A DNA stretch of 64,000 nucleotides from Nitrosotalea devaniterrae (lineage in GTDB: Archaea; Thermoproteota; Nitrososphaeria; Nitrososphaerales; Nitrosopumilaceae), in NCBI GenBank assembly GCA_900065925.1, contig LN890280.1, positions 1,046,451 through 1,110,450 of the forward strand, given 5' to 3'. Within the stretch, counting starts at the first letter, position 1. Every line of letters starts with the position of its first letter. The notes under the pieces were generated by a model. The model made no database searches. It was not told the DNA's origin and saw only the letters and a list, made by a program, of their open reading frames with translations. Below are positions 2,474 through 11,156 of this stretch, in pieces. The translations under genes and the position numbers were made by a program.

Positions 2474-3541
2474 CTAACTGTCGCGCTTGCCTTCTACAAA
2501 CTCTCCAAATGCCTTCTTTGCCTCAGTGTATGGCATTTGAATTGGAGGATGCTTAAAGCAGTAAGATGAGATGCTAGTCATCGGGCCGTATAATTTTCTG
2601 TCAAGTGCAATCTTGAGTCCTCTGATTGCATCGATCATGATTCCAGCACTGTTGTATGCATCAATCACTTTTAGTTTGAGATCTAACTTGACTGGGATCT
2701 TTCCAAAGTATTTTCCTTCCAAGTTGATATAGCAAATCTTCTCATTGTCGATAAAATCAACATAATCACTAGGACCAATTCTCATTGGGATATCATAGTC
2801 TGCCATTGCCTTGACTGCACTTGTCTTGCTGATTCTCTTGTCTTCTAGTCTTTCTTCATCAAGCATGTTGAAAAAGTCCATGTCACCACCAATGTTTAGT
2901 TGGTATGTGCCATCAATCTGTACACCTCTGTCTACAAAGAGTTTCACCAATGTCTTGTGGACCACGGTTGCTCCAAGCTGACTCATCACATCATCTCCTG
3001 CAAGCGGAATTTTTTTCTCGGCAAACATCTGCTGCCATTTTGGCTCGGATGCGATAAACACCGGAATTGCATTGAGAAATCCTACACCAGCTTCGAGTGC
3101 CTGGCTTGCATAGTGCTTTACGGCATTAGTGCTTCCCACTGGGAGATAGTTGACAAGCATCTCTGCTCCACTGTCTTCTAGGACTTTTTTGACATTAACA
3201 TCAGGCTCTGAAGAGACTGTGACAATTCTGCTCAGGTGTCTTCCTATGCCGTCAAGAGTAGGACCCTTTTGGACAGTTACGCCCATCTTTGGAACTTCGG
3301 CTACAGTAATTGTATTATTTGGTCTTGCATAGATTGCTTCTGATACATCTTTTCCAACTTTGGTATCTGCAACATCAAATGCTGCAACAACTTCAATGTC
3401 TCCTGGCTCATATCCACCAATATTGTATGCTGTTAGACCGATAGTATCATGAGTATTCTGTGTATAGTATTTTCCGCCTTGGATGATTGCTGAAGCACAA
3501 TTGCCAACACCGGCTATTGCAATCTTTATTTTCTTACCCAA
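2474..3541 (-). CDS. ino1: Archaeal-type myo-inositol-1-phosphate synthase
   Basis: Converts glucose 6-phosphate to L-myo-inositol 1-phosphate in an NAD-dependent oxidation-aldol-reduction; the product feeds archaetidylinositol lipids and possibly compatible solutes. The 355-residue length fits the short prokaryotic family. An N-terminal Rossmann motif GVGNCAS (residues 11-17) binds NAD, and the family motif with NYLPVGS is near residue 130. An AT-rich box about 26-33 bases before the ATG (around 3566-3574) could be its TATA element. It is divergent from the deoxyhypusine synthase gene and upstream of smc. Family assignment is firm; which inositol product is made is not visible. Confidence 0.95.
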   Translation of the reverse strand: MGKKIKIAIAGVGNCASAIIQGGKYYTQNTHDTIGLTAYNIGGYEPGDIEVVAAFDVADTKVGKDVSEAIYARPNNTITVAEVPKMGVTVQKGPTLDGIGRHLSRIVTVSSEPDVNVKKVLEDSGAEMLVNYLPVGSTNAVKHYASQALEAGVGFLNAIPVFIASEPKWQQMFAEKKIPLAGDDVMSQLGATVVHKTLVKLFVDRGVQIDGTYQLNIGGDMDFFNMLDEERLEDKRISKTSAVKAMADYDIPMRIGPSDYVDFIDNEKICYINLEGKYFGKIPVKLDLKLKVIDAYNSAGIMIDAIRGLKIALDRKLYGPMTSISSYCFKHPPIQMPYTEAKKAFGEFVEGKRDS

Positions 3542-3627: not shown

Positions 3628-4566
3628 ATGATAAAACCCGGCAAGCCTGTCAAGGATATTCACATCAAAAAGGGCGACAGCATCAGTTCAATATTTGATC
3701 AAATGTCAAAGTCAGGTGGGTTTGAGTCAAAAAATCTAGTAGACGGACTTGACATTCTTACTTCAATGGTAGAAGACAAGAATTGCTTAAAGTTCATGTC
3801 ATTTGTTGGAGCTGTCGTATCAACAGGTCTCAGGGGTGTAATCACAGACATGGTCAAAAACAAAATGTGTGATGTTGTGATTACAACATGTGGCGCTTTA
3901 GATCATGACATCGCAAGACACTATTCTAATTATTTGGAAGGATCATTTACAATGGATGACAGCGAACTTGTAGAACAAGACATTCACAGATTAGGAAATG
4001 TTTTGGTTCCATTGAAAAGTTATGGCCCATTGATTGAAGAAAAAATGCAGGGTTTTCTACAACAAGCTTTCAAGGAAGGCAAAAAAGAAATGGCAACTCA
4101 TGATGTTACAAAAATGATTGGAGAAAATCTTGGAGAAGATTCATTTCTTTACTGGGCAAACAAAAACAACATACCAGTGATTGTCCCGGGAATAATGGAC
4201 GGTGCAGTAGGAAGCCAAATCTGGATGTTCTCACAAAATCATAAAGATTTTAGATTAAATGTTGCAGCAGACGGAGATTTATTGTCAGGATTAATTTTCA
4301 AGGCAAAAAAATCAGGCGCATTGATGATAGGTGGAGGAATATCAAAGCATCATACTTTGTGGTGGAACCAGTACAGAGAGGGTCTAGACTATGCAGTATA
4401 CATTACAACTGCCCAAGAGTTTGATGGAAGTTTGAGTGGTGCATTGGTCAGAGAAGCAATCTCATGGGGCAAGGTTACAAAAAGCGCAAAACAAACCACA
4501 ATTCATGCAGAGGCTACAACGATTCTACCGTTTCTCTACTCTGCACTGCTTGCCAATCTCAAATAG
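3628..4566 (+). CDS. dys: Deoxyhypusine synthase
   Basis: Transfers the aminobutyl group of spermidine to a lysine of translation factor aIF5A, the first step of hypusination. About 312 residues, normal for the family. The catalytic region GGGISKHH is present with the active lysine near residue 240, and the motif ITTAQEFDGSLSG follows. An in-frame TTG two codons upstream is an alternative start. Its 3' end overlaps the convergent acetyltransferase gene by 8 bases. A HEAT protein at 39902-40390 is discussed as a possible partner for the second hypusine step; that link is inference. Confidence 0.95.
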   Translation: MIKPGKPVKDIHIKKGDSISSIFDQMSKSGGFESKNLVDGLDILTSMVEDKNCLKFMSFVGAVVSTGLRGVITDMVKNKMCDVVITTCGALDHDIARHYSNYLEGSFTMDDSELVEQDIHRLGNVLVPLKSYGPLIEEKMQGFLQQAFKEGKKEMATHDVTKMIGENLGEDSFLYWANKNNIPVIVPGIMDGAVGSQIWMFSQNHKDFRLNVAADGDLLSGLIFKAKKSGALMIGGGISKHHTLWWNQYREGLDYAVYITTAQEFDGSLSGALVREAISWGKVTKSAKQTTIHAEATTILPFLYSALLANLK

Positions 4567-5263
4567 TATAGACCGTCTTGTAGTAAACTTCCTGAAAGCC
4601 TAGTTTTGAATAAAATTCCAAGAGGTTATCTCTCTTGTATGTTTCAAGCATCAAAAATTCCAAGTGCATAGAGTCTACCTCGTGTAATGCAAAATCAATC
4701 AATGAAGCTGCCAGTCCACGATTTCTCTTATCAGGAACTGTACCAAGACAGTAAAGCCCCAGGATGGAACTTGCCTCATAGAGTGCCACACATGCACTGT
4801 GAGATTCATCTACAAAATAATCCACATATGAGATAGATTTCTCCAATATGGAAGATACAGTTTGTGACCACGCTTGACAGTCATAGGCTTTACAGAAAAT
4901 TCCAGTCCAGGTATCAATATTATCAAGTGTTATTTTGATTGCATTAGGTTTCTTTTGTGGTAGTAAATTTTTTTTCAACACATATTGCGTATCATGATGT
5001 ACAAATCCCTTTTTTTCAAGCATGTTTTCAAATTCAGGATAATTTAATGAGTAAACATATGGCACAGAATGATTTTTCTTAAAATCCTCCAGTGATTTTT
5101 CAATCATGGTATCATCAATGCACGTAACACTTGTCAGCTTGTTGAAAAAAATGTCATCTGCAAGTTTTGGATTCAAAAAAAGCGTGCCGCAAGGCATTGG
5201 TATAGCATCACTCCACAATCTAGTAAAACCGGTATCATTTGATTCGATTTGCGATATCATCAT
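4559..5263 (-). CDS. GNAT-family N-acetyltransferase
   Basis: Acetyl-CoA-dependent acetyltransferase of about 234 residues. The C-terminal half holds the GNAT fold with the acyl-CoA pyrophosphate loop RNRGLA (near residue 183). The N-terminal half is not an obvious second GNAT domain by eye. The start at 5263 forms an ATGA overlap with the stop of the upstream CysRS-like gene, so the two are very probably translationally coupled; a TTG or similar start at 5287 would make an unnecessary 28-base overlap. The partner suggests that it acetylates an amino-acid conjugate made by the ligase, by analogy with MshD of mycothiol synthesis. The substrate is unknown. Confidence 0.85.
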   Translation of the reverse strand: MMISQIESNDTGFTRLWSDAIPMPCGTLFLNPKLADDIFFNKLTSVTCIDDTMIEKSLEDFKKNHSVPYVYSLNYPEFENMLEKKGFVHHDTQYVLKKNLLPQKKPNAIKITLDNIDTWTGIFCKAYDCQAWSQTVSSILEKSISYVDYFVDESHSACVALYEASSILGLYCLGTVPDKRNRGLAASLIDFALHEVDSMHLEFLMLETYKRDNLLEFYSKLGFQEVYYKTVYTI

Positions 5264-6420
5264 ATCTTGATTCCAAGTATTGTGCATATACGGTTAAAAT
5301 CGATTTTATTGATATGCTTTCCATTTTGCACCTCAAGGCATATTCTTTCCAGCACTGCAAGAGCAGCAGGAGAATCAAGGTCATCACCCAGGGAATGCAG
5401 AAAATCACCAATCATATCTGAAATGTGTTCATCAGTTGTATCAGAAACCCTAGTTCCAGTTAGGCGAACCAATTCAAGCAATGGTTTTTTTGCCAACAGA
5501 TCTTTTTCAGAAAAATCCATGTCATCACGATAATGCTTTGAGAAAATATACAATCGGATAAGATCAGAGTCATATTTTTTTATCAAGTCTTTGACCCAGA
5601 CAACATTGCCCAGGGATTTTGACATTTTTTCTCCTCCTGAGAATACAAGACCCACATGCACCCAGGCCTTTACTGGCGCATCAGAATCTGACAGCAACTG
5701 ATATTGTGCAAGATGAGCCTCGTGATGAGGATATAGAAGTTCTCGAGCTCCCCCATGGACATCATAACTTGTACCAAAATTTTCAAAGGCAACTGCAGTA
5801 TCTTGCATGTGCCACCAAGGAATACCAGTTCCAAACTCACTTTTCCACGAGAAATCAAAGTCTTCAGTACAGTTCCACAGCATGACATCCTCAGGATTTT
5901 TCTTTCCAGGACCAATGTCTAATCTATGCAGGTTTAGCTGAGCCCTTGTCTGCTGTGAAATCTTGCCATAGTTTTTCACTTTGGAAACATCAAGGTATAC
6001 ATTTCCATGTGCCATGTAGGCAACACCTTTTTCCATTAATTTTTTTACTTGTTTTTCAATATCAGATACATAATCTGATACATATGCAAGCCTGTTGACA
6101 CTTTGTATTCCAAGTGATTGTAAATCATCTGCAAATGCAGAGGTATAGAATTTGGCCACATCCTTGTAGGTAGTAGAATTTTCTTTTGCCTTGTGAAACA
6201 CATTTTGGTTGATGTCAGTCAGGTTTACAAGAACATCAGTCTTCATCCCTTGATCATTTAGGCACCTAGACAAGAGATCATATGTCAAAAATATTCTTGC
6301 ATGTCCAAGATGCGTGTAATCATAGACAGTGGGACCACAGATGAATATTTTTGCCAGATTTTTTTCAAACGGAATGAAATCTTCTTTAGATAAAGAAAAA
6401 GAATTAAAAAGTTTGAGCAT
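5260..6420 (-). CDS. Cysteinyl-tRNA synthetase-family ligase without anticodon domain, altered zinc site
   Basis: Class I aminoacyl-adenylate-forming enzyme of the CysRS family, 386 residues against roughly 460 for typical CysRS. Seen: HLGH (37-40) as the HIGH motif and KMSKS (265-269). The first zinc ligand Cys28 is kept. The region matching the bacterial WHIEC motif reads WHMQD, putting Asp207 at the second ligand. PHHEAH keeps His232 but has His236 at the position of the fourth ligand Glu. The protein stops at the helical bundle, so the C-terminal anticodon-binding domain is absent. It is the middle gene of an operon, 10 bases after a Lrp-type sensor gene and overlapping a GNAT gene by ATGA. 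It may be a divergent CysRS or, as MshC, a ligase acting on a small molecule. Confidence 0.88.
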   Translation of the reverse strand: MLKLFNSFSLSKEDFIPFEKNLAKIFICGPTVYDYTHLGHARIFLTYDLLSRCLNDQGMKTDVLVNLTDINQNVFHKAKENSTTYKDVAKFYTSAFADDLQSLGIQSVNRLAYVSDYVSDIEKQVKKLMEKGVAYMAHGNVYLDVSKVKNYGKISQQTRAQLNLHRLDIGPGKKNPEDVMLWNCTEDFDFSWKSEFGTGIPWWHMQDTAVAFENFGTSYDVHGGARELLYPHHEAHLAQYQLLSDSDAPVKAWVHVGLVFSGGEKMSKSLGNVVWVKDLIKKYDSDLIRLYIFSKHYRDDMDFSEKDLLAKKPLLELVRLTGTRVSDTTDEHISDMIGDFLHSLGDDLDSPAALAVLERICLEVQNGKHINKIDFNRICTILGIKI

Positions 6421-6742: not shown

Positions 6743-7459
6743 ATGGGAAACGAAGTATTTGTCAGAGAAGTTATTCCAATCGATGTAAAAGACGGTTACC
6801 TCATTGATGGTTTTCCCTACACAGGTCTGGCAAATGCAATTGCAACGGAATCACTTGTCAATACCACATCCCAGTTTGAACTGGCAGGAGTTCTTGATTC
6901 AGAGTTGTTTCCTCCAATTAGTATCGTACGAGACGAAGTGCCAAACTTTCCAGCACGAATTCTAGTAAATAAAAATCTCAAGGTCGCAGTGTTTTCATCA
7001 TATCTTACACCTCACGAATCAATTCATCGCGATGTTGCAAGGGTCATGCTAAAATGGGCAAGTGACCACAAGTGCTCTTTTATCATAAGCAGTTCTGCAA
7101 TCAAAAGTGACGATGAAGCTCCATTTGTGATAGGTGTTGGAAGTACTGAAACAGCAAAGAAAAAGCTACGTGAAGTAGACATTCCGGTGCTAAAGAATGG
7201 AACCATTCCAGGCATTCCTGGAATTTTGTTAAATGAAGGCATGATATCTGGCATAAACGTCATCGTATTATTATGCAAGGCAAAAGAATCAGGACCTGAC
7301 TTTAAAGCAGGTGCAGATATCTGCATGGCCATGTCAAAGATCGTTCCAGGATCTTCGTGCAATCTCAATTTATTACTTGATGAAGCTAAAGGTGTAGAAC
7401 AAAGCCTCAAGCAAACAGAACAAGAAGCAGGTCCACTACGAGATGCAATTTACGGATGA
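6743..7459 (+). CDS. PAC2-family protein (proteasome assembly chaperone-like)
   Basis: 238-residue protein of the archaeal PAC2 (DUF75) family, related to proteasome assembly chaperones. Motifs visible by eye are the N-terminal strand ending in GFPYTGLAN, a central FVIGVGST segment and the glycine/proline-rich stretch around GIPGILLNEG, all usual for this family. The C-terminus is helical and probably forms a coiled coil. It is divergent from the sensor-domain gene and its stop overlaps the following small gene by 4 bases. No proteasome gene is in the window, so the role is taken from the family only. Confidence 0.88.
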   Translation: MGNEVFVREVIPIDVKDGYLIDGFPYTGLANAIATESLVNTTSQFELAGVLDSELFPPISIVRDEVPNFPARILVNKNLKVAVFSSYLTPHESIHRDVARVMLKWASDHKCSFIISSSAIKSDDEAPFVIGVGSTETAKKKLREVDIPVLKNGTIPGIPGILLNEGMISGINVIVLLCKAKESGPDFKAGADICMAMSKIVPGSSCNLNLLLDEAKGVEQSLKQTEQEAGPLRDAIYG

Positions 7460-7704
7460 TCTACAAAGAAAAAAGTATAGAAAAAGAAAATCTTGAAAAA
7501 TTTTTAAGGACTTTGGATTCTGATGAAGGAGTCAGAATAGATAATGAGTCAGAGCACGTGTTTATCAACAAGACTTCAAAAAGATACTGCGTCAACATAT
7601 CAATAGACAACAAGGATGAATTCATTTACAAAGACAGTACAGGTGAAGTGATGGATTTTTTAAAAAATCATATCAGACAAGAGACAAAGATTTCAACATA
7701 CTAG
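7456..7704 (+). CDS. Hypothetical protein, coupled to the PAC2 gene
   Basis: 82 residues, charged, no membrane segment or recognised motif. Its ATG overlaps the stop of the PAC2 gene (ATGA), which implies translational coupling and makes it a real gene despite its size. The predicted secondary structure is an N-terminal helix followed by beta strands. No function can be assigned. Confidence 0.7.
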   Translation: MIYKEKSIEKENLEKFLRTLDSDEGVRIDNESEHVFINKTSKRYCVNISIDNKDEFIYKDSTGEVMDFLKNHIRQETKISTY

Positions 7705-8654: not shown

Positions 8655-9749
8655 ATGGATGGAAAAATCATATTCCATATTGACTTTGATTATTTTTATG
8701 CCCAGTGCGAAGAGATACGCAGACCAGAACTCAAGACAAGGCCAGTGGTAGTATGTGTCTACTCTGATCGTGGCGGAGACAGTGGAGCCATTGCAACTGC
8801 AAACTATGTTGCCAGAAAATACGGAGTCAAGTCTGGGATGCCAATTAAATTTGCAAAAAAGAAGCTAGAAGACATTCCAGAATCAGTTTTTCTGCCCACA
8901 GATTTTGAGTATTATACAGAGACATCAGAGAAGGCCATGAGCATAATCAGAAACCATGCAGACATTTTCGAGTACGTTGGAAGAGATGAGGCATATCTTG
9001 ATGTTACAAACAGAACAGAACAAGATTTTAAAAAAGCAGCTCACCTGGCACAACAACTCAAAAATGCATTGCGCACCTCAATGAAGCTTTCAAGTACAAT
9101 AGGAGTATCATCAAACAAACTTGTTTCAAAAATTGCATCAGATTACAAAAAACCCGATGGTCTTACAGTAGTAGAGCCCCAAGAAATAGAATCATTTCTT
9201 GGACCATTACCAATAAGGACAATTCCTGGCATAGGTAAAAAGTCAGAAGAAAAGTTTTCTGAAATGAACCTTGATACAATATCACAACTTCGTAGCGTAG
9301 ATGTGTTTACACTAAATGGGTTATTTGGAAGAAAGTGGGGGTCTTACATTTACAATGCAGCGCGAGGAATAGATGAAGACCCAGTCTCTCCAAGACATGA
9401 CCCCATTCAGTATAGCAGAATTGTAACACTAAAACAAGATTCCAAAGATTTTGATTTTCTTGCAAAAGATTTGGAAAAACTTTGTGATGACTTGCATGAA
9501 ACCATAATCAAGGATAACATACTTTTCAAGTCAGTAGGGATACAGTTTGTCCAGTCGGATTTATCCAACAGGACAAAATCAAAAACTCTTAGAAATCCAA
9601 CATCAAGCTTGGACGAATTGAAAAAAGCTGTAATTCAACTGCTAAAAGACTCACTTGAGGACCAAAAATTACCCATAAGGCGACTGGGTGTACGAGTTTC
9701 AGACTTTTCACAGATTAGTGGACAGGTAGACATTACAAGATTTTTTTAA
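8655..9749 (+). CDS. dinB: Y-family DNA polymerase IV (Dpo4)
   Basis: Translesion DNA polymerase, 364 residues. The palm carries the catalytic acidic residues in DFDYFYAQ (near residue 10) and in DEAYLD (near residue 106), where the more usual SIDE is GRDE. The helix-hairpin-helix region with GIGKKSEEKF is around residue 195. The little-finger domain ends at about 345. The last eight residues, QVDITRFF, fit the PCNA-interacting consensus Qxx(I/L)xxFF, so the enzyme should bind the sliding clamp. Its 3' end overlaps the convergent HExxH gene by 4 bases. Confidence 0.96.
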   Translation: MDGKIIFHIDFDYFYAQCEEIRRPELKTRPVVVCVYSDRGGDSGAIATANYVARKYGVKSGMPIKFAKKKLEDIPESVFLPTDFEYYTETSEKAMSIIRNHADIFEYVGRDEAYLDVTNRTEQDFKKAAHLAQQLKNALRTSMKLSSTIGVSSNKLVSKIASDYKKPDGLTVVEPQEIESFLGPLPIRTIPGIGKKSEEKFSEMNLDTISQLRSVDVFTLNGLFGRKWGSYIYNAARGIDEDPVSPRHDPIQYSRIVTLKQDSKDFDFLAKDLEKLCDDLHETIIKDNILFKSVGIQFVQSDLSNRTKSKTLRNPTSSLDELKKAVIQLLKDSLEDQKLPIRRLGVRVSDFSQISGQVDITRFF

Positions 9750-10231
9750 ATCAAGACGCCGACTCGTGATGCCAGCCGTTTATGCTCATCATGAGATATC
9801 CATTCCACATGTAAATAGTCAAATATCTCACTGTCTGCCATCCCAAGATTTCGTGCTTCCTCAACTGCAATTGCATATGCTTCAATCTCAGTTGGCCTAT
9901 CAACATAGGAATATGACTTGTCATACAGATCCAAGCCTTGTCTTTGTTGTTTTACATGTACCAGCTCATGGATGATATCCAAGTAGAGGATTTTTTTTTC
10001 AGAATTTTTGAGGTGGTTTTTACCTATTACGATTGACGCATCCTCGTTTTGCACGTGCATATAGTGTGTCTTCTCGTTTATGATGACAGATACATTTTCA
10101 AATACATCATCAAGGTCTTCTTTTGTTTCAAATATTTTTAAAAGAATTCCAGTATTTTTTAGATTGACAAAAATCTCTTCTAGTCTATAGGTTCCATTTT
10201 CTAGATCATTATTTACTTTGATCTGGTTCAT
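9746..10231 (-). CDS. Putative HExxH zinc metallopeptidase, exosortase operon
   Basis: 161 residues with the zinc motif HELVH near residue 89 and a downstream acidic segment PTEIEAYA, whose glutamate could be the third ligand of a gluzincin-type site. There is no signal peptide or membrane segment, so it appears to act in the cytoplasm or at the inner membrane face. The start overlaps the 3' end of the exosortase-family gene by 23 bases, so the two are almost certainly one operon. A role in processing or regulating sortase substrates is inference. No precise peptidase family is assigned. Confidence 0.75.
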   Translation of the reverse strand: MNQIKVNNDLENGTYRLEEIFVNLKNTGILLKIFETKEDLDDVFENVSVIINEKTHYMHVQNEDASIVIGKNHLKNSEKKILYLDIIHELVHVKQQRQGLDLYDKSYSYVDRPTEIEAYAIAVEEARNLGMADSEIFDYLHVEWISHDEHKRLASRVGVLI

Positions 10232-11156
10232 TTTTTCCTGCCCCTAATTTTTTGATTCGTTTTGTTTCAACATATGTTACAATGAGCAAGAATATGAAAA
10301 GCCATGGCAAGAACATTATTTCTCCCGCAATCCCGTGGAATGATTCAAACTCGTTTACATTAGTTGATACCTTGAGGACAAAGATTGAAAGTGACAATAT
10401 CCTGATCACGTTTACAGTTATTGTTCCTATGACTCCCATGACAAAGTACCCGACCTTCCTGTTGCGCGGTATGTTCATCTTTAACAAAAATGCCATCATC
10501 ACAAGCGAGTAGATTATGATACTATGTACACCAGCGGACGGCCAGAATACTTGCAGTGCAAAGGGGCCATGATCTCCATTGAGGAACATCACGTTCCCGT
10601 GCGAAGTTGCCATTCCCAAGTGGAACAGGTTTATCAAAAATACATCTAGTTTTACAAGATATGGTACAACATACTGTAACGGGCCAAGTGAATCATATGG
10701 AAAAAATGCATCAAGTGATAAAATGATTGCAGTCCCTGCAGCATATATCGGGCCTGCAGGTGATATTCGAATCCACCTCTTGCCAAATAATACGGTCATG
10801 CTTACCATGAAAAATGCTGCAAGTATGATAAAGTCCCACATCCAAGTCCACGAGTCTTTTAGTAATACATGGAAACTTGGTGCAGCTGATACCAAATAAG
10901 ATTTCAAGCCAAATTCTAGGCCAATGAGGTACCCAATTACTATACCAGCAAGCGGGATTATCATCAGTAGGCGTTTTTTTGGGATATCTAGTTTGAGGCC
11001 AATCAGTTCTGCTGCAATAAACGCCATCGCAAAAAGGAACCCTCCCCTGCCTTGGTTCCACCCAAGACTGAACGTGTTGGGAAATACCACCAGTGCAAAT
11101 ATCACAGGAGATGCAAGTATTGCCAGTGCAAATATGACGCTTTTATTTTGCAACAA
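10209..11156 (-). CDS. Exosortase/archaeosortase-family transpeptidase with Ser at the catalytic Cys position
   Basis: Polytopic membrane protein of 315 residues with about eight hydrophobic segments. The family triad region is recognisable: WPSAGVHS (205-212) aligns with the Cys-containing active loop of exosortases, NVIRI (249-253) supplies Arg252, and FHGIAGE (273-279) supplies His274. Ser207 stands where the nucleophile Cys is normally found. Family members cleave proteins at C-terminal sorting signals such as PEP- or PEFG-CTERM and may attach them to lipid. It is co-transcribed with an HExxH protein. The alignment is by eye, so the Ser/Cys statement should be verified. Confidence 0.85.
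   Translation of the reverse strand: MLQNKSVIFALAILASPVIFALVVFPNTFSLGWNQGRGGFLFAMAFIAAELIGLKLDIPKKRLLMIIPLAGIVIGYLIGLEFGLKSYLVSAAPSFHVLLKDSWTWMWDFIILAAFFMVSMTVLFGKRWIRISPAGPIYAAGTAIILSLDAFFPYDSLGPLQYVVPYLVKLDVFLINLFHLGMATSHGNVMFLNGDHGPFALQVFWPSAGVHSIIIYSLVMMAFLLKMNIPRNRKVGYFVMGVIGTITVNVIRILSLSIFVLKVSTNVNEFESFHGIAGEIMFLPWLFIFLLIVTYVETKRIKKLGAGKNEPDQSK

Follow-up and report, generated by a model that had tools for sequence, protein, structure and literature searches.

An anticodon-domain-less CysRS paralogue of ammonia-oxidising archaea and its two conserved partners: a candidate conjugation system outside translation

The 64,000-nucleotide window of Nitrosotalea devaniterrae DNA analysed here encodes a CysRS-derived ligase core, CysL. 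In archaeal ammonia oxidisers of soils and acid lakes, and in related archaea, CysL is co-inherited with a GNAT-type acetyltransferase and a small protein, Y-tail. CysL sequences form a single clade, keep intact ATP-binding motifs, have lost the anticodon-binding domain (ABD), are coupled to the GNAT and are inherited almost without exception together with Y-tail. Given these observations we lean, if only just, towards the view that the three proteins would belong to a single, dedicated system for conjugation outside translation. Such a module points to an undescribed pathway that would put an amino acid, probably cysteine, on a non-tRNA acceptor, and in the open-access literature searched it is not mentioned. 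If this is true, CysL represents a second, independent route from the CysRS core to a metabolic ligase. The module may lead to a new small thiol or a new modification of proteins, and it offers a role open to testing for the Y-tail family, small proteins whose last residue is always Tyr.

Table 1. Positions of the genes and proteins discussed, in the window and in related loci and genomes
Feature	Position	Strand	Remarks
Ino1	window 2474-3541
GNAT-type acetyltransferase	window 4559..5287	(-)	N-terminal domain of ~110 aa and C-terminal GNAT; directly downstream of cysL
CysL, CysRS-derived ligase core, 386 aa	window 5260..6420	(-)	C28, D207, H232, H236; HLGH; KMSKS; without ABD
Y-tail protein, 82 aa	window 7456..7704	(+)	motif LDxDxGIR; invariant C-terminal Tyr
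Possible accessory protein, 161 aa	window 9746..10231	(-)	HELVHVKQ motif (putative zinc metalloprotease); near cysL in 5 of 15 family groups only
HELVH gene and overlapping exosortase-like membrane protein gene	window 9746-11156		PF09721, sub-threshold
Full-length CysRS of Nitrosotalea	C1:725270-726142		C-C-H-E; ABD present
Second Ino1 homologue	L199 9343-10413 (G000 C1:683857-684855)		~31% identical
Y-tail of G154	L313 8948-9304		C-terminal Tyr
CysRSs without ABD, family f5	L055, L076-L084, L086-L088		chain ends ~113-145 aa past KMSKS
Long-branched CysRS-like family	L159 8986-10245; L160 9078-10304; L161 8405-9714		two ORFs in L161
Thioredoxin/glutaredoxin-like proteins	L162 12243-12626; L240 4335-4685; L243 7475-7822; L245 28-393		CPHC motif
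Radical SAM protein	L155 7592-8668; L034 6461-7537		CNFYCPMC motif

The ligase core and its metal site

A first-pass annotation of this DNA had described a ligase of the CysRS family with intact HLGH and KMSKS motifs and a retained Cys28, and the open reading frame, which starts with ATG, carries all of them (HLGH at 37-40, KMSKS at 265-269, by sequence and alignment). Alignment with E. coli CysRS (1li5), Coxiella CysRS (3tqo) and MshC (3c8z) likewise matches Asp207 to the second metal Cys, that of WHIEC, and His236 to the Glu in HHENE, the second and fourth ligand positions to which the annotation had assigned them. In profile searches CysL scores 308 bits against TIGR00435 (CysRS; cut-off of 340 not reached), 245 bits against TIGR03447 (MshC; cut-off of 485 not reached) and 273 bits against Pfam tRNA-synt_1e. 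Its AlphaFold model (mean pLDDT 90.6) superposes over the whole length of CysL on CysRS 8qhp (Z 47.9, rmsd 2.0, 376 residues) and on MshC 8hfn (Z 46.0). E. coli CysRS 1u0b is covered only up to residue ~395 of 461, so that the ABD is the only part missing, in agreement with the earlier claim that the chain ends before this domain. The annotation had also proposed a search for a second, full-length cysS, and a canonical one is indeed present elsewhere in the Nitrosotalea genome (Table 1). The conservation of CysL is not due to chance: identity is 58-82% within the genus and its sister, and purifying selection acts on the gene (dN 0.10-0.30, dS 0.8-1.8, dN/dS about 0.12-0.17). In a maximum-likelihood tree of 91 rows, unrooted and with a few long branches, MshC included, a branch with support 99/100, present in 100% of the bootstrap trees, separates all CysLs from all CysRSs, and MshC sits among the latter. 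By this tree, CysL is a separate clade, distinct from CysRS and from MshC.

Do the replaced zinc ligands alter the choice of amino acid, as the first-pass annotation had suggested? In a phylum-wide survey the nearest full-length CysRSs read PGWHIED, with Asp as ligand 2 and Glu as ligand 4. No second CysRS-like gene was found in the genomes of these Asp-type enzymes, except for G170, which also has CysL, and from this sole-copy status we infer that they use cysteine. The widened CysL family keeps HIGH, KMSKS, C28, T68, W203, D207 and H232, a few sequences being atypical at single positions, for example W203 or H233. At ligand 4, families f44, f67, f68, f70, f71 and f76 have Glu, Nitrosotalea and many Nitrososphaera have His, and the remaining sequences have Ile, Leu, Gln, Asp or Tyr. 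Judged from these alignments, Asp at ligand 2 is a trait common to CysL and the Asp-type CysRSs, and His at ligand 4 is derived, a late change. Because Asp occurs in sole full-length CysRSs and basal CysLs keep Glu, the metal site gives no ground for expecting a different amino acid; the suggestion is not upheld, the zinc-ligand argument for CysL function is weak, and metal-site replacement as the defining change of CysL is contradicted.

Other positions are more specific to CysL than the metal site. Residues that are near-invariant in CysRS (D72, K183, W196 and R200) are lost in most CysLs, and E206 has become Gln and F230 Tyr in three quarters of the sequences. The Asp-type (WHIED) full-length CysRSs of other Thermoproteota share with CysL the fold (Z 47.9), the Asp ligand, HIGH and KMSKS, whereas CysL is without the ABD, is a second copy in its genome, is coupled to GNAT and Y-tail and has lost these conserved residues. 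The three-gene module, which the first-pass annotation had not noticed, is a stronger and newer line of evidence than the metal site, and extends beyond positions 5260-6420. A DNA pattern for WHMQD was tried as a survey tool and abandoned; it matched true CysLs but also unrelated ORFs. Other Thermoproteota also carry a long-branched CysRS-like family of ~410 aa with the motifs CGPSxYQxPHIGN and PAWNIQD, without a GNAT or Y-tail partner.

Conservation and co-inheritance of the three genes

When all neighbours of cysL were clustered, cysL, the GNAT gene and the Y-tail gene were the only genes common to at least 13 family groups. In 48 of 53 loci, from Nitrosopumilaceae, Nitrososphaeraceae, several deeper families and G170, the GNAT gene follows cysL directly downstream in the same orientation, and it often overlaps cysL by 4-29 nt; in the window the overlap is 28 nt, or 4 nt with a later start codon, the ATG at 5263. 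In two f49 genomes the GNAT is convergent and more MshD-like (61.7 bits, 7e-17 against TIGR03448, MshD, under the cut-off of 163 bits, which the window GNAT with 16 bits is also under), and an adjacent GNAT is absent in three loci (L035, L250 and L252, of which L252 is close to the end of its contig). Against the PDB, the window GNAT matches generic N-acetyltransferases only. In most lineages the Y-tail gene stands just upstream of cysL and divergent from it; in the window an Lrp-like gene and a PAC2 gene stand between the two.

Y-tail proteins are ~80-110 aa long. Across 40 aligned sequences mean column identity is 22%, with Asp23, Gly25 and the terminal Tyr82 invariant, and the stop codon is genuine at the end of all 40 ORFs. 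A profile search added 12 further members, at unlinked positions or from other families; all 52 sequences end in Tyr, at a Tyr frequency of 4.8%, and position -3 is aromatic in 39 of them. No relative was found in Pfam, NCBIfam or PDB sequences, and no plasmid match. The model (pLDDT 87) has no clear match in the PDB (best Foldseek E 0.11; best VIA Z 6.5, in the noise range), which is not proof of a new fold.

Co-inheritance was scored in 275 genomes of one archaeal order. CysL was counted as present when a genome had at least two matches of which one or more fell short of full length, or a single match that was short and scored high, second matches being read individually in part; Y-tail presence came from an independent profile search. 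Both were present in 92 genomes and neither in 180, with CysL only in one and Y-tail only in two, and these three exceptional genomes are 87-90% complete. The genomes are related, so that a Fisher p-value overstates the significance of the pairing. The repeated joint presence and absence of the two genes is independent of that value: family f44 has 18 genomes with both and 7 with neither, and family f43 has 27 and 17. In Nitrososphaeraceae cysL and the Y-tail gene are usually unlinked on the chromosome, and therefore linkage alone fails to explain their co-inheritance. Roughly one in three genomes sampled from the order has the module, including those of the soil ammonia oxidisers Nitrososphaera and Nitrosotalea, and the large marine-type genera in the sample lack it. 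Outside the order Y-tail occurs in four sampled genomes, and in G170, G300 and G220, elsewhere in the phylum, cysL adjoins it and the whole module is found. G154, also outside the order, has a Y-tail (Table 1) and no CysL was found there; either this genome is incomplete or its Y-tail is able to act without CysL.

These distributions bear on the idea that CysL is a backup or condition-specific CysRS, used for instance in zinc shortage, with GNAT and Y-tail as mere hitch-hikers. CysL does belong to the CysRS superfamily and its metal site is altered, but Y-tail is co-inherited almost perfectly, the operon with GNAT is conserved across families and CysL is without the ABD, and we regard the idea as very improbable.

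Possible chemistry of the module

That this protein may be a non-tRNA ligase had been suggested in the first-pass annotation, and this proposal stands in part: a paralogue beside a full-length cysS, without the ABD, with adenylation motifs kept and with no tRNA genes nearby speaks for it, while its metal-ligand argument falls away. CysL is likely a CysRS paralogue acting outside standard translation, and a ligase not acting on tRNA is, from sequence, its best reading. The alternative is a synthetase without ABD that charges tRNA-Cys or a special tRNA, with the GNAT acylating or transferring the aminoacyl group, possibly onto Y-tail. ABD loss is not decisive, since in some other archaea (family f5) a CysRS without ABD but with a C-C-H-E site is the only CysRS detected. 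These enzymes keep the alternative alive, together with CysRS* of Desulfobacterales, an ABD-less CysRS paralogue that charges SelC* (PMC9437257). Next to cysL, by contrast, the neighbours are different and neither a tRNA gene nor a full SelB/SelC pair was found; ARAGORN, in a bacterial mode that may miss intron-containing archaeal tRNAs, gave no tRNA hit either in the window or in 19 related loci. Further support comes from PEARL/pearlin systems such as TglA/TglB, in which an amino acid from aminoacyl-tRNA is attached with a small ribosomal carrier peptide whose C-terminus is important (PMC9016710, PMC9303977). PEARLs are LanB-like and use aminoacyl-tRNA, whereas the present module has a CysRS-like ligase and a folded small protein. 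The likeness is an analogy only, and no LanB-like PEARL gene recurs next to cysL in the neighbourhood clustering. Given also the full-length CysRS elsewhere in the genome and the loss of D72, K183, W196 and R200 in most CysLs, tRNA charging appears unlikely, yet it deserves serious consideration.

In the conjugation system that we favour, CysL, as an ATP-dependent ligase, would form an aminoacyl-AMP, most likely cysteinyl-AMP held by the Cys/Asp/His metal site, and would hand the aminoacyl group to a non-tRNA acceptor. The GNAT would then N-acylate the product. MshC is a cysteine:GlcN-Ins ligase that works with MshD, and by analogy this pair would be a natural model for both the chemistry and its order. 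CysL resembles MshC in its CysRS-derived core without ABD, in its nearly full-length superposition (Z 46.0) and in its functional pairing with a GNAT. It differs in belonging to another clade, in a C-D-H core where MshC has C-C-H, in a score far under the MshC cut-off, in a genome without MshB and in having Y-tail as a partner.

Could the module then be a mycothiol-like pathway for a small thiol, with an MshC-like CysL, an MshD-like GNAT, glucosaminyl-inositol or another small amine as acceptor and Y-tail as a thiol-dependent enzyme or sensor? The architecture and length of CysL, an ino1 gene 1.7 kb away, GNATs that match MshD weakly and, in several CysL carriers, a second Ino1 homologue beside Thi4-, thioredoxin-reductase- and cysteine-synthase-like genes are in line with it. 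Against these, no MshB/PIG-L homologue was found in the genome (TIGR03445, E 0.01), MshA is under its cut-off and MshC is outside the CysL clade. The second Ino1 is absent in the carriers G170, G300 and G350 and present in the non-carriers G186, G251 and G334, and Ino1 proper is in 30 of 30 genomes tested. We consider such a pathway improbable. Mycothiol synthesis proper was rejected, with MshB absent and MshA and MshD under their cut-offs. Likewise, a link to inositol through ino1 was dropped: ino1 has SMC as its neighbour in loci of both Nitrosotalea and Nitrososphaera, and the distribution of the second Ino1 does not follow that of CysL strictly.

Within the conjugation system, Y-tail may be a carrier or acceptor, or a docking subunit, whose invariant C-terminal Tyr would be read by CysL or GNAT. 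A role as acceptor or carrier seems the likeliest, though short of an even chance; a docking scaffold is somewhat less likely, and a small pathway enzyme or regulator less likely again. It is conceivable, if doubtful, that CysL loads the amino acid, probably Cys, onto or together with Y-tail, with the Tyr as recognition or attachment point where the GNAT would act. If true, this would be a protein-carried amino-acid activation unlike MshC, LysW or PEARL, the tRNA being swapped for a folded protein partner. The carrier reading has a real weakness: CysRS chemistry activates a free amino acid, and CysL therefore cannot simply extend the C-terminal carboxylate of Y-tail, which would need different chemistry. 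Counting against the conjugation system as a whole are the unlinked Y-tail genes of Nitrososphaeraceae, the three loci where the GNAT is not adjacent and the Y-tail of G154.

Other neighbouring genes

The HELVH putative metalloprotease gene of the window overlaps a gene for an exosortase-like membrane protein, and Nitrosopumilaceae without CysL do not have the protease at this position. In some lineages, thioredoxin/glutaredoxin-like proteins that carry a CPHC motif are encoded near cysL. Both were considered as module members and set aside, as they recur near cysL in few families only. In some Nitrososphaera a radical SAM protein is encoded just upstream of cysL.

The window Ino1 is 64-72% identical between Nitrosotalea and Nitrososphaeraceae and ~45% identical to that of the other sampled Nitrosopumilaceae genera, values that would fit gene replacement in the Nitrosotalea lineage. 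The cluster around the second Ino1 homologue is kept together in Nitrosotalea and two Nitrososphaeraceae.
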